Positions 11,014 through 22,059 of a stretch of 22,059 bases of DNA are shown here, piece by piece (the stretch's first letter is position 1; each line of letters starts with the position of its first letter). This DNA comes from a virus, in the IMG/VR virus record IMGVR_UViG_3300031766_000081, positions 1-22,059 of that record; one strand, given 5' to 3'. The notes under the pieces are model-generated. The model worked only from the letters and a program-made list of their open reading frames with translations, made no database searches and was not told where the DNA came from. Both the position numbers and the translations under genes were made by a program.

Positions 11014-11712
11014 TTATCGGAGAGAAGCTTGTATATAATTGATTATTGTTTCGGGATCAGATACTTCGTATGGATCATCGTCATTACCTGTTTGATTAAA
11101 TCCAGGTTCAACAAATGCTTGATCAACAATACCGTTAATAACATATAGTGAATAACGCCACGATCGTGGACCAAATCCTAAATGTCGTTTGTTACAACTA
11201 ACGCCTAATGCTTGAGAAAAGTCGCCATTACCGTCTGAAAGTAATTTAACATTTTTAATACCAAGACTTTCAAACCATGCATTCATAACAAACCCATCAT
11301 TAACTGAAACACAATATACTTCGTCTACACCTAGACCTTTAAATCTATCATATGCTTCGTCGTATGCTGGTAATTGTTTGGTTGAACATGTTGGTGTAAA
11401 TGCTCCAGGTAAACCAAATATTACAATTTTTTTCTTAGGGAAAATCTCAGCAGTAGTAATTTTTTGAAAGTCACCCATTACTCTATTAACAAAAGTAACA
11501 TTAGGTATTCGGTCAAATCTTTCTATTTTTTGAATAGAGCCCGGTAAGGCAGGATGACCTGTTCGTTCGTATTTGTCTTTATATGCCTTAGCATACTCAT
11601 CAGGAGTAGGTGGTCTTGTAGTTTCGTTTTCAAATGTTTTATCAGTACTACGATGATTACCGCCGTATTGATCTTGGATTTGTTTTCCAACATTAGTGTC
11701 AGTTAGTTTCAT
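11014..11712 (-). CDS. Peroxiredoxin (Prx5-like) with N-terminal extension
   Basis: Thiol peroxidase that reduces hydrogen peroxide or organic hydroperoxides. The active-site motif PGAFTPTC has the conserved PxxxTxxC arrangement, with peroxidatic Cys109 counted from the chosen start. VYCVSVNDGFVMNAW, KLLSDGNGDFSQALG, and the catalytic-arginine region GFGPRSWRYSLYV follow in the order expected for Prx5/hybrid-type peroxiredoxins. I chose the ATG at 11710-11712: it forms an ATGA overlap with the upstream 56-aa gene and has GGAGG 11 nt before it. A TTG at 11730 would add six residues. About 70 residues precede the catalytic fold (PPTPDEYAKAYKDKYER and flanks) with no recognised domain. It probably protects the infected cell from oxidative damage; the electron donor is unknown. 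Confidence 0.9.
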   Translation of the reverse strand: MKLTDTNVGKQIQDQYGGNHRSTDKTFENETTRPPTPDEYAKAYKDKYERTGHPALPGSIQKIERFDRIPNVTFVNRVMGDFQKITTAEIFPKKKIVIFGLPGAFTPTCSTKQLPAYDEAYDRFKGLGVDEVYCVSVNDGFVMNAWFESLGIKNVKLLSDGNGDFSQALGVSCNKRHLGFGPRSWRYSLYVINGIVDQAFVEPGFNQTGNDDDPYEVSDPETIINYIQASLR

Positions 11713-11879
11713 TTGTATATTTTCCTCCAACGCTGATCATATATGTTCTTGTCGTTTTCTGTTAGTACATATCCGGGATTGTTTGCTAGTTTTATTGCTA
11801 AATCCCTTAGTTCTATTCCTTCTTGTGTTAACTCTGCATCTGGTACATCTTTTAATTCATCTAAGTATTTCCAGCTCAA
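11709..11879 (-). CDS. 56-aa protein with TTG start
   Basis: Translating the minus strand from TTG at 11877-11879 gives 56 codons: SWKYLDELKDVPDAELTQEG and on to RWRKIYK, then TGA. Support comes from a very strong Shine-Dalgarno AGGAGG seven bases before the TTG, and from its stop overlapping the peroxiredoxin ATG as ATGA. It also fills the otherwise empty gap after the 151-aa gene. The protein is acidic and helical at the N-terminus and basic at the C-terminus, with no cysteine or membrane segment. Function unknown. Confidence 0.7.
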   Translation of the reverse strand: MSWKYLDELKDVPDAELTQEGIELRDLAIKLANNPGYVLTENDKNIYDQRWRKIYK

Positions 11880-17109: not shown

Positions 17110-17116
17110 TATTTAT
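17110..17116 (-). promoter_or_regulatory. ATAAATA late-promoter-like motif at gp17/761-aa junction
   Basis: ATAAATA on the minus strand overlaps the gp17 stop codon and ends 5 nt before the next ATG. It resembles the T4 late promoter core TATAAATA, but this placement would give a leaderless transcript, so it may be coincidental or serve an internal start. Confidence 0.3.
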
Positions 17117-18705
17117 CTGTATTGCGTCGTAACCATAATAGGCATTGGCGGTACAAAGTCCTCTGGGTTTTCGTCATCAGCTTGATTAAAGGTATCATAT
17201 ACCCTTGGATCCCATGCTTTTAGTACTGTAATCATTCGCATTGTTAATATAGAAGCCATTACTAAGTCATCAGTTTCACCAGGCTTTGCTTTAAAGCCAG
17301 ACCCAGCCGCAACAAACCCTTTAAGCTCAGTAATTAATGGTTTACTGTTTATTTTCATTCTATCGTTTTCGATCATTGTTTTGAGTTTAGCACAAGCACT
17401 TACTTTTGATATGTGTGTAGTATTAAATCCTTTGCGGAATTTACGTATATGTCCTTTTTTCATCGGCTCACTAACAAACATACCTGGTATATTTTCTTCA
17501 CCAAAATCATTAATAACAATAAGGGCGGCTTCACCTATAGCATTATTTTCTACACTCCAGTAAATATTTTGTCCTGTTGTATTTCCAACATCTTTAATAT
17601 AGTTACATATATCTTTCATAATTCTAATTTGTGCAGGAATTGGAGTTGTATTATGACGCCATTCTGCAATTTGTATATATGTAGGTAATTCAATAACTTG
17701 AATTGCTGAATAATCACCTCCAGTACCCATTGCTGGATCTAAAGCAACTACATACGTTTTATCTCCTGATGGTTTTCCGTACCAACGAGTTTGACCCATA
17801 TTAAGTACAGGATCTACTCCCTCTAATGTTGATAATTTAATTGAATTAATTAATGTTTCATCATAAACTAAGAATTCACAACCGTACTCTCGTCTAAATC
17901 TTTCCTCGCCAATACGCCCTACTTCTGCTTTTGCCCAGTCATCGTCTCTATCTGGATGAGCGTCCCACGGTGCAGTATATCCATGAAATCCATTAATTCC
18001 AACTTCGTTTTCATTACCGTTGTCGTCAAATTTATTTTGTGATTCTTTCCATATAATTGCAAAAGTATCTTCGTCTGAGTTTGGTGTTGATGTAATAATT
18101 GCACGACCACCTGTTGCTAGTGTGGGTGACATTGAAGTCCAAAACTCATCAGCAATACTTGGATTAACAAAAGCAAACTCATCACAGTATAGTAATGATA
18201 TAGACATACCTCTACCAGTATTACCTGTAGTAGTAGCACTTACTAATCTACTACCGTTTTCAAATTCCATTGACCCTTTGTTATAATTTGTTACTCCAGC
18301 ACGAATAAAGTCTGGACATAATTCATATCCATAACGAACACGTTGCATAATTTCTTGAGCACCAGCAAACTTATGTGCGGCAATTAATATTGTTTGATCA
18401 GGATGGAACATAGCATACCATAAAAGATATGCAGACGCACAAGTAGTTTTACCACTTTGACGCGGTAACATATTAACATTGAATCGATGGTTATGGTAAG
18501 CACTTAATAGTTCTTCTTGATATTTAAAAGGTTTGAATAACATTTTACCTTCAACAGGATGTTGAATATACATGAAATTTTGTGCAAAGTGTAAATAACC
18601 TGAATCAGGATCCATACAGGCTTTTAAGTGCTTTATTTCTGCTTCGCCGAACTTTTCACGTAAGTGAGCTTTTTTAGTTAATACGCCGTCTAAACTTTTT
18701 ACCAT
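17113..18705 (-). CDS. 17: gp17 terminase large subunit
   Basis: ATP-driven packaging motor and headful nuclease. From the ATG at 18703-18705 it is 530 aa, slightly shorter than T4 gp17 (610). ATPase domain: PRQSGKTT (81-88) is Walker A, LLYCDEFAFV (171-180) is Walker B with the catalytic glutamate, and ITSTPN is the coupling motif. RNase H-like nuclease domain: YVVALDPAMGTGGDYSAI, SVENNAIGEAAL and DDLVMASIL supply the expected Asp/Glu residues. An in-frame TTG at 18723 lies inside the terminator hairpin and is unlikely. No clear ribosome site precedes the ATG. It is separated from gp16 by three genes and a terminator, unlike the adjacent 16-17 pair of T4. Confidence 0.97.
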   Translation of the reverse strand: MVKSLDGVLTKKAHLREKFGEAEIKHLKACMDPDSGYLHFAQNFMYIQHPVEGKMLFKPFKYQEELLSAYHNHRFNVNMLPRQSGKTTCASAYLLWYAMFHPDQTILIAAHKFAGAQEIMQRVRYGYELCPDFIRAGVTNYNKGSMEFENGSRLVSATTTGNTGRGMSISLLYCDEFAFVNPSIADEFWTSMSPTLATGGRAIITSTPNSDEDTFAIIWKESQNKFDDNGNENEVGINGFHGYTAPWDAHPDRDDDWAKAEVGRIGEERFRREYGCEFLVYDETLINSIKLSTLEGVDPVLNMGQTRWYGKPSGDKTYVVALDPAMGTGGDYSAIQVIELPTYIQIAEWRHNTTPIPAQIRIMKDICNYIKDVGNTTGQNIYWSVENNAIGEAALIVINDFGEENIPGMFVSEPMKKGHIRKFRKGFNTTHISKVSACAKLKTMIENDRMKINSKPLITELKGFVAAGSGFKAKPGETDDLVMASILTMRMITVLKAWDPRVYDTFNQADDENPEDFVPPMPIMVTTQYR

Positions 18706-18710
18706 ACTAG

Positions 18711-18717
18711 TATTTAT
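18711..18717 (-). promoter_or_regulatory. ATAAATA late-promoter-like motif before gene 17
   Basis: ATAAATA on the minus strand lies between the terminator and the gp17 ATG, 5 nt before the start codon. gp17 needs a new start site after the strong terminator, which favours some promoter here, but the motif is too close to the ATG for a normal leader. Low confidence. Confidence 0.3.
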
Positions 18718-18723
18718 TGGCAA

Positions 18724-20564: not shown

Positions 20565-21053
20565 TTATTTATCCATGTGCTTTAGTTTTTCTAGTAGACT
20601 ATTGCGATCTGTAACTACATACCCTTCGCCGTTTACTATATTAGCATCATCAATCGAGCTTTCTTTATCCATTTTTTCTTTTTTAAGCTGTAATTCTACC
20701 ATTTTTAGCTTTTTATCAAGTTTTGCATTCTTGGCGTCTAAGTTAGTTTTAAGCATTTGCCCTGCAACTTCAAAAACACGCCCTGAATACCGTGCTTCAA
20801 CATTCATACCTAGATCCATTAAATCTTCATATGCCTGCATAGATTTATCAGAAACTTCATTTAACTCTTTATCAGCTAGTTCTCCTAGACCCTTTACCTG
20901 CGGTAACGCCGCTGTAATTTTGTCAAATTCAGCTATTTCGCGAAATGTTTCTTTTTGTTCCTGCTTCGCTTCTAGTTTAGCTTTATTGTTATCTGCATCT
21001 ATAATTTCTTTTGATTCAGGTAAGTTTAGGAGTTCTTCTAACTTCTTAGTCAT
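20565..21053 (-). CDS. 16: gp16 terminase small subunit
   Basis: gp16 recognises phage DNA and regulates the gp17 motor during packaging. The protein is 162 aa (T4 gp16 is 164) and mostly coiled-coil helical. It has TAALPQVKGLGELADKELNE, AYEDLMDLGMNVEARYSGRVFEVAG as the central helical motif, and LDAKNAKLDKKLKMVELQLKKEK as a long oligomerisation helix, followed by GEGYVVTDRNSLLEKL. This order fits marine T4-like gp16. The ATG overlaps the iscU stop by 8 nt, with AAGGAAAG just upstream, so gp16 is translationally coupled to the iron-sulfur scaffold gene. Confidence 0.88.
   Translation of the reverse strand: MTKKLEELLNLPESKEIIDADNNKAKLEAKQEQKETFREIAEFDKITAALPQVKGLGELADKELNEVSDKSMQAYEDLMDLGMNVEARYSGRVFEVAGQMLKTNLDAKNAKLDKKLKMVELQLKKEKMDKESSIDDANIVNGEGYVVTDRNSLLEKLKHMDK
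20566..20572 (-). promoter_or_regulatory. Candidate late promoter (ATAAATA) before 190-aa gene
   Basis: ATAAATA on the minus strand overlaps the gp16 stop and lies 24 nt before the next ATG. A start about 6 nt below it would leave a normal short leader carrying the AAGGAA ribosome site. The motif matches the T4 late core TATAAATA except for its first base. Confidence 0.45.
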
Positions 21054-21423
21054 TTCTTTCCTTGTAATTTTTTATCGCTGATTTAATAGCATCCTCGGCT
21101 AAAACACTACAATGTATTTTAACTGGGGGTAATGCTAACTCATCTGCAATATCCATATTTTTAATTTCTCCTGCTTGATCTAAAGTTTTACCTTTTAACC
21201 ATTCAGTTACTAAACTTGAACTTGCAATAGCTGAGCCACAACCAAATGTTTTAAATTTAGCATCTACTATTTGTTCTTCGTCTACTTTAATTTGTAATTT
21301 CATAACATCACCACATGCTGGTGCTCCAACCATTCCAGTTCCAACATTTGGATCGTCTTTATCAAACGTACCTACATTTCGCGGGTTTTCGTAATGATCT
21401 AATACTTTTTCACTATATGCCAT
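21046..21423 (-). CDS. iscU: IscU iron-sulfur cluster scaffold, complete, phage-encoded
   Basis: IscU receives sulfur from IscS and iron, assembles a [2Fe-2S] cluster, and hands it over with HscA/HscB. The 125-aa protein is full length (E. coli IscU is 128) and very close to the bacterial enzyme as I remember it: MAYSEKVLDHYENPRNVG at the start, GAPACGDVMKLQIKV with Cys37 and Asp39, FGCGSAIASSSLVTEW with Cys62, and LPPVKIHCSVLAEDAI with His104 and Cys105. The LPPVK HscA-binding motif is intact, so it could plug into host chaperones. It lies between the gp4/membrane genes and gp16 and overlaps gp16 by 8 nt, so it is part of the packaging operon. No IscS, HscA or ferredoxin gene is in the window. 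Confidence 0.97.
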   Translation of the reverse strand: MAYSEKVLDHYENPRNVGTFDKDDPNVGTGMVGAPACGDVMKLQIKVDEEQIVDAKFKTFGCGSAIASSSLVTEWLKGKTLDQAGEIKNMDIADELALPPVKIHCSVLAEDAIKSAIKNYKERND

Positions 21424-21454: not shown

Positions 21455-21461
21455 TATTTAT
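21455..21461 (-). promoter_or_regulatory. Candidate late promoter (ATAAATA) before iscU
   Basis: ATAAATA on the minus strand overlaps the stop of the 56-aa membrane gene and lies 31 nt before the iscU ATG, leaving room for a leader of about 25 nt that contains AAGAGAAG. It resembles the T4 late core TATAAATA and would express iscU and gp16 late. Confidence 0.45.
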
Positions 21462-21628
21462 TTCTTATTTTGGTTGAACAGCTCAAAAAGAGTGTGGACT
21501 TTCTCGCGTAGGACTTCTATTGACGAATGCATTTTAGCTAATACAATTACTAATGTAACGAATCCTAAAAATATTGGCCATAAACTTGCTATTACATTAA
21601 GTGAATCTGCCGTGGTTCCATCCGTCAT
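21458..21628 (-). CDS. Single-pass membrane protein, 56 aa
   Basis: Translating the minus strand from ATG 21626-21628 gives 56 residues ending at a TAA. The ATG overlaps the gp4-like stop as ATGA, and AAGGAAAAAGGAA precedes it. Residues about 12-32 (VIASLWPIFLGFVTLVIVLAK) form one transmembrane segment, followed by a polar helix SSIEVLREKVHTLFELFNQN. The small size and single span would suit a small membrane-active phage protein, but nothing identifies it as a holin or spanin. It fills the gap between gp4 and iscU. Confidence 0.78.
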   Translation of the reverse strand: MTDGTTADSLNVIASLWPIFLGFVTLVIVLAKMHSSIEVLREKVHTLFELFNQNKK

Positions 21629-22059
21629 TTCCTTTTTCCTTTATGAAATATGTCATGTTCATTGATGACTCTAAATACAATCTTTCTTTGTTTACACCAA
21701 TATCTTGCGGCTTCCCATTTTGCAAGATTCTGTACATATTGAGCTTGTCGGTACTTATTTCTTCCGATGCTCTCTTTCTTCATCTGGTTTTCAGGTTTGA
21801 CTTCTATTAATTCAACATGCCCTTTTCCTTTTGCATCTGTATATTGAATCATAAAGTCTGGAACATAAACTGTAAGTTTTCCTGTTAAAGGATTCCTATA
21901 AGGAATCTTAACTGACTCACTTGCCCATTTAGACACGGATGGGCTTTCATCACAAAATTTCATAAATGCGAATTCCCAACTAGATCTATAAAGGGGTGTT
22001 TTGTTGCCTAAGTATTTTTCTGTATGTTTAAGACTATAGCGTCCCTGTGCATATTTCGC
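21625..22059 (-). CDS. 4: gp4-type head completion nuclease (TnsA-like), 5' end cut by window edge
   Basis: Partial gene: the frame is open from the right edge for 144 residues to the stop at 21625, so the true start lies beyond the window; an internal ATG at 21963 is not the start. The visible part reads YSLKHTEKYLGNKTPLYRSSWEFAFMKFCDE, ESVKIPYRNPLTGKLTVYVPDF and HVELIEVKPENQ. Its layout (R-S-xWE, PxY, PDF, IEVKP) corresponds to T4 gp4, a TnsA-like restriction-fold nuclease; the Glu, Asp and ExK residues fit the fold's metal site. gp4 (with gp50/65) acts in head completion after packaging, before tail joining. It leads the operon membrane protein-iscU-gp16. Confidence 0.88.
   Translation of the reverse strand, partial: AKYAQGRYSLKHTEKYLGNKTPLYRSSWEFAFMKFCDESPSVSKWASESVKIPYRNPLTGKLTVYVPDFMIQYTDAKGKGHVELIEVKPENQMKKESIGRNKYRQAQYVQNLAKWEAARYWCKQRKIVFRVINEHDIFHKGKRK

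Follow-up and report, generated by a model that had tools for sequence, protein, structure and literature searches.

An iscU scaffold gene as optional cargo at the gp4–gp16 junction of T4-like phages from environmental DNA

Organization of the iscU locus

The stretch of DNA analysed here, hereafter referred to as the window, comprises 22,059 nucleotides of an IMG/VR virus record (IMGVR_UViG_3300031766_000081) and represents a T4-like phage known solely from environmental DNA. A complete iscU gene lies on its minus strand among head and packaging genes, and the features relevant to this work are as follows:

11014–11730, minus strand, peroxiredoxin (PHROG 2281, E 6.3e-63; Redoxin, PF08534)
17113–18723, minus strand, gp17-like terminase large subunit (PHROG 36964, E 9.6e-125; PF03237, PF17289)
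20565–21053, minus strand, gp16-like small terminase candidate, 162 aa (PHROG 445 'terminase small subunit', E 0.0028; position upstream of gp17)
21046–21053, minus strand, 8-nt overlap between the iscU stop and the gp16-like start (from ORF coordinates)
21046–21423, minus strand, iscU, complete, 125 aa, ATG start (TIGR01999, PF01592, invariant active-site residues)
21455–21461, minus strand, ATAAATA motif, starting 38 nt upstream of iscU
21458–21628, minus strand, 56-aa ORF between gp4 and iscU, with one likely membrane segment as judged by eye
21625–22059, minus strand, gp4-like head closure protein, running past the window end (PHROG 218, E 1.2e-39)

The profile matches make the gp4 and gp17 assignments solid; the gp16 name is a putative one, given on account of position and of weak profile matches, the second of which is to PHROG 16202, a family of unknown function (E 1.4e-12). 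The 8-nt overlap of iscU with this gp16-like ORF, as originally described, is real and likely reflects translational coupling, and the corresponding overlap measures 8 nt in the related contigs L002 and L004 and 4 nt in L087 to L089. It had further been stated that iscU is next to gp4, and the two genes indeed belong to the same block, but the 56-aa ORF intervenes, with a similar ORF of 56–68 aa occupying the same place in L001 to L004.

The ATAAATA motif is similar to TATAAATA, the -10 element from which T4-type phages start late transcription. It occurs five times on the coding strand of the window and not at all on the opposite strand, is situated no more than 60 nt from 3 of the 27 window gene starts, and is present upstream of iscU in L004, L087 and L089 and absent there in L002 and L088. 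Scanning the window for TATAAATA with one mismatch revealed no enrichment (68 found versus 84 expected), and the promoter-like motif offers a weak hint. Since ATAAATA also precedes gp16 in five of the six iscU-less relatives looked at, it appears as if iscU had slipped in behind the gp16 promoter. The originally described placement of a complete iscU within a head and packaging block is supported; the gp16 overlap and the upstream motif would fit co-expression of these genes late in infection, from which we infer that iscU is expressed late.

Authenticity of the locus

A second viral record matches the window at 99.98% identity along 9,673 bases that include iscU, and iscU is located at the same gp4–gp16 junction in seven viral contigs besides the window, one of which is the same phage as the window and two of which are near-copies of each other. 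The junction recurs in six diverged contigs (L002, L003, L004, L087, L088 and L089) with an IscU protein identity of 80–94%, the proteins of L002 and L003 being identical. A chimeric contig, the artefact on which the original prediction was said to stand or fall, and host contamination at iscU are both ruled out, because these further contigs repeat the same junction.

A misassigned host isc operon is likewise ruled out. The bacterial ISC system has iscR, iscS, hscB and fdx, none of which is found among the examined neighbours of the window gene or in any of 80 viral iscU loci (the best 80 of 575 relatives), and host isc operon neighbours are equally missing from L001 to L004, which have the junction of the window. 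These loci are therefore not host-operon-like, and the partners of the encoded protein would come from the host. Partial hscA matches (40–47% identity, more than 5 kb from iscU) are present in 6 of the 80 loci, and an iscA-type gene in 69 of them. With gp4 and gp16-like flanks, gp17 downstream and several contigs that agree, iscU is a metabolic gene of host type within genuine phage DNA. Among the records that match iscU are two named 'Acinetobacter phage MD-2021a' (CAKLQH020000011.1 and CAKLQF020000009.1); in CAKLQF020000009.1 the inspected region consists of chromosomal DNA with a whole isc operon, so that the phage label looks wrong there.

The window gene encodes a complete ISC-type scaffold

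The window protein scores 221.1 bits against the NCBI curated TIGR01999 iscU profile (cut-off 192.4), and its scores against the NifU_clost, NifU_proper and SufU models in the same kind of profile search fall below their cut-offs. It also matches Pfam NifU_N (PF01592, 181.8 bits) and PHROG 8429, 'NifU-like Fe-S cluster assembly protein' (144 bits), and its top solved-structure match is the IscU scaffold chain 2l4x (E 4e-63), aligned end to end. Residues C37, D39, C62, L98-P99-P100-V101, H104 and C105, assessed in an alignment that also included 3lvl, are invariant in 45 of 45 rows from the viral collection and phages and in 98 of 98 bacterial rows; numbering is that of the window protein, which has one residue fewer than 2l4x ahead of C62. 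The lysine of LPPVK is present in the window IscU, the invariance count covering the LPPV residues. Consequently, the claim of a full-length IscU with three cysteines, Asp39, His104 and LPPVK stands, and the protein shares its length and all of these residues with bacterial ISC-system IscU (TIGR01999; 2l4x, 3lvl, 1q48).

The gp4–gp16 junction is a variable cargo slot

Among the best 80 of a larger number of gp17 (terminase) relatives (L084 to L163, near-copies kept), 59 have both flanks, and their gp4–gp16 junction is empty in 36 (27–49 nt), holds other cargo in 18 and iscU in 5. The junction is hence a cargo slot in which iscU is optional. That related phages might lack the gene at this site had been named as grounds for abandoning the original prediction; the gene is indeed lacking in 54 of the 59, a pattern which reveals a cargo slot and not an artefact. 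When six of the slot cargo proteins were scanned by family, one was an FkbM methyltransferase, one a sulfotransferase and four had no match. All five iscU carriers have a gp17 at least 86% identical to that of the window, and below 86% there are none among 53; L004, which carries iscU, is outside the set of 59, its available gp17 being a partial piece.

An instance of this turnover is provided by L089, which possesses iscU, and L090, from which it is absent. Starting at the iscU–gp16 junction, these contigs share 99.7% identity along 11,580 bases, compared with 84.6% upstream, and they represent a natural with/without pair whose break is at the edge of iscU. The record to which L090 belongs, G007 (126,586 bases, possibly incomplete), has no PF01592 match. 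On a gp16 plus gp17 tree of 44 hand-picked rows, with L004 left out, the presence of iscU needs two changes, and L090 is the odd one. A separate observation in these contigs is that a piece of the 761-aa protein of the window matches within the adjoining p273 homologue (L087 7061–7297, L089 2654–2887, L090 9112–9345), suggesting a segment shared by, or moved between, two genes.

A slot that holds unrelated genes or nothing, together with a near-identical L090 devoid of iscU, could mean that iscU is a passenger in an insert-tolerant site and of little benefit to the phage. The constraint on the gene makes this highly improbable: pairwise dN/dS among same-site iscU is 0.12–0.26 (15 pairs), compared with 0.03–0.12 for gp16 and 0.06–0.40 for gp17, which points to purifying selection on iscU that is looser than on gp16. 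Moreover, internal stops or short matches were found in none of 195 extracted viral and bacterial sequences, a set of best matches in which broken copies are under-sampled, and iscU is also carried by phages in which it has other neighbours.

Relatives and apparent spread of phage iscU

The close match to gamma- and betaproteobacterial IscU had originally been taken as a sign of recent transfer from such a host. However, the top bacterial match among those fetched reaches 83% (Methylophilaceae), versus 89% for IscU of L005 to L008 and 87% for L009, viral contigs in which the gene has other neighbours. In an IscU tree the window groups with L001, L003, L008 and L009 (98/96). Beside this group, with weaker support, are L004 and, less tightly, L080, L087 and L088, and L089 is placed elsewhere. 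This tree comprises 53 rows out of 143 (the window and 142 unique ones), with L012, L026 and L082 left out as long branches and with phage and bacterial groups thinned, bacteria partly at random; an earlier IscU tree had 94 rows. The test rejects a single clade for the iscU genes at this site (p-AU 0.0154), which fits replacement by the iscU of other phages; as it followed inspection of the earlier tree, this result counts as suggestive. One clade of all phage iscU rows fails to be rejected (p-AU 0.417), 125 columns resolving little.

Given the closer phage homologues and the rejected same-site clade, iscU seems to be mobile from phage to phage, and its kinship would then say little about which host the phage infects now. 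These comparisons do not support a recent transfer out of a gamma- or betaproteobacterial host, and an older descent from these groups, further back, is likely. Nor does the view that phages rarely carry iscU agree with the 575 stretches of the viral collection that encode a relative of the window IscU, some of which may be host DNA, or with marine viral iscU published in 2017 (PMC5332604).

Candidate iron-sulfur clients

It had been proposed that the additional scaffold may serve a phage iron-sulfur (Fe-S) protein, a proposal for which G007, the closest long relative of the window phage by gp17, supplies plausible candidates. Between positions 120214 and 125336 it encodes an aldehyde dehydrogenase, a 4Fe-4S ferredoxin, a POR_N protein and two TPP_enzyme_C proteins, one of which matches solved oxalate and pyruvate oxidoreductase beta chains. 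The three oxidoreductase-type proteins (POR_N and both TPP_enzyme_C) are all below NCBIfam cut-offs, and the enzyme is probably of the 2-oxoacid:ferredoxin oxidoreductase type, with a substrate that the matches do not specify. At 114974–118325, G007 has saccharopine dehydrogenase, proline dehydrogenase and beta-eliminating lyase family genes. The main gap in the proposal is that scaffold and client genes are not seen together in one genome of the lineage: neither iscU nor an A-type carrier was found in G007, and the iscU-bearing members are fragments of 7–22 kb.

Relatives of the G007 PorA protein are present in six other viral contigs (75–91% identity, one partial). Two contigs have POR_N, TPP beta-type, 4Fe-4S ferredoxin, Nfu (PF01106) and A-type carrier (PF01521) genes in one run (L316, 8164–12325; L319, 9980–14421), and a third combines one alpha and one beta-type gene with an A-type carrier near baseplate wedge genes (L318, 1887–6858), with no ferredoxin match in that stretch. 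In a search confined to 398 Pseudomonadota genomes, with matches of any kind in 146, G007 PorA reaches about 31% identity at best over most of its length and up to 39% in short pieces. Being that far from Pseudomonadota, it suggests that this lineage took different cargo genes from different donors, and it renders unsafe the suggestion, drawn from IscU kinship, of a proteobacterial host and against one relying only on Suf.

Radical SAM proteins were also considered as the reason for carrying iscU and rejected, since their counts do not track iscU across records: the iscU-bearing G022 (L064), G023 (L073) and G024 (L060) have 10, 19 and 11 matches, the iscU-less G012 and G014 have 9 and 6, and the iscU-bearing G001 to G006, G018 and G019 have none. 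G022, G023 and G024 are large virus records in which iscU and A-type carrier genes occur together.

Fe-S clusters are targets of oxidants, and iscU could instead be general stress cargo, whose product mainly rebuilds host clusters damaged during infection and sustains respiration and core metabolism with no special phage client. In line with this, the window encodes a peroxiredoxin, a possible partner in oxidative-stress defence, and in L010 an iscU–iscA pair follows an Fe/Mn superoxide dismutase gene, with UvdE also in the context. Nevertheless, a peroxiredoxin is also present in the iscU-less L090 and L091, so the two do not travel together, and the fact that other phages cluster Nfu and A-type carrier genes with genes for Fe-S enzymes speaks for clients; we regard a mainly stress-related role as rather unlikely. 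Elsewhere, the contexts of iscU include DnaJ (L009) and, in L005, whose IscU is among those 89% identical, ferredoxin, GTP cyclohydrolase and glutaredoxin, together with a QueE-like protein that is below NCBIfam cut-offs and has no Pfam match.

Proposed role of the phage scaffold

We favour, with a probability of roughly 0.57, the reading that iscU encodes a working scaffold, carried as optional cargo of the slot, which would act late in infection with host IscS, HscA and HscB and would feed both phage and host Fe-S proteins. Transcription of the gene probably takes place late, on a message shared with the packaging genes, and its translation is probably coupled to that of gp16; its product would plug into host IscS as sulfur donor and into HscA/HscB for cluster release, and the added scaffold capacity may allow Fe-S clusters to be built or replaced still late in infection. 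The likely recipients would be phage Fe-S proteins, such as the ferredoxin and the 2-oxoacid:ferredoxin type oxidoreductase of G007, and damaged host proteins, possibly including those of respiration.

The same contact with host IscS could serve a different end, namely to take sulfur from TusA and tRNA thiolation and thereby alter frameshifting or translation, with clusters being secondary. IscU and TusA compete for IscS according to the title of PMC11302665, and a phage study describes a Pseudomonas host mutant in the last isc operon gene with lowered phage production (PMC5175280). The latter work discusses sulfur flux, tRNA U34 thiolation and the lambda gpG/gpGT ratio, citing Maynard et al. 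2012, and mentions that the E. coli counterpart of that gene has been linked to tRNA thiolation and lambda gpG/gpGT. Yet Asp39 and the HscA-binding LPPV would be needless for a mere IscS binder and are invariant in every viral row, and the frequent iscA-type neighbour fits cluster delivery. We regard sulfur diversion as improbable, but as a serious rival all the same. A dead-decoy IscU was set aside in view of the conserved Asp39 and LPPV, an argument that does not touch an IscU which is fully functional and serves to drain sulfur.

The working-scaffold reading can be extended to the wider lineage, in which T4-like phages would own an Fe-S supply line: iscU from the slot along with Nfu and A-type carriers encoded elsewhere, all of them exchangeable, would mature phage ferredoxin and 2-oxoacid:ferredoxin oxidoreductase and so rewire, during infection, the central carbon metabolism of a non-proteobacterial, possibly nitrite-oxidising host. 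We consider this extension unlikely and offer it as speculation; the lead for a nitrite-oxidising host is the published statement that Nitrospinae have POR and OGOR.

Published precedents and significance

Viruses with iscU are already in print, and the window is a well-resolved further example. Nishimura et al. 2017 (PMC5332604) placed six environmental viral IscU in a clade with gammaproteobacterial homologues and, in the part of the article available, report marine T4-like genomes with A-type carrier (ATC) and/or IscU, along with further Fe-S proteins in the same genomes; the gp4–gp16 site, cargo turnover and phage-to-phage exchange of iscU are not described in that part. HMO-2011-type phages, which belong to a different phage group, likewise have phage-borne iscU, together with erpA (PMC9038755). 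Lake Baikal viruses assigned to Nitrospirota possess, according to PMC7678222, a ferredoxin oxidoreductase, an OGOR epsilon subunit and an Fe-S assembly gene, which its authors propose to mature the viral ferredoxin. These freshwater viruses combine Fe-S assembly and oxidoreductase genes in one virus and represent a partial precedent for G007, L316, L318 and L319, with G007 carrying alpha, two beta-type and ferredoxin genes. An oxygen-minimum-zone study counts viral nifU under Fe-S assembly. We noticed no report of iscU in a packaging operon in the literature searched, a search that did not target the slot and whose coverage leaves out most subscription journals.

Listed so far among auxiliary genes, phage iscU is resolved here to a case with an exact insertion site and a natural with/without pair, and the signs of passage from phage to phage imply that the host cannot be read from iscU kinship. 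Should phage Fe-S enzymes be served by the scaffold, phages would carry the supply of a cofactor along with the enzymes that depend on it; should tRNA thiolation instead lose sulfur to it, this would represent a new way of tuning translation.

An Fe-S cluster in lambda gpL-type tail tips was reportedly described by Tam et al. in 2013. As a separate observation, G007 encodes three glycine-rich proteins (35936–36682, 37470–38240 and 38251–39051) with 24, 26 and 28 cysteines, CCC runs included, which sit among large, probably tail-related genes.
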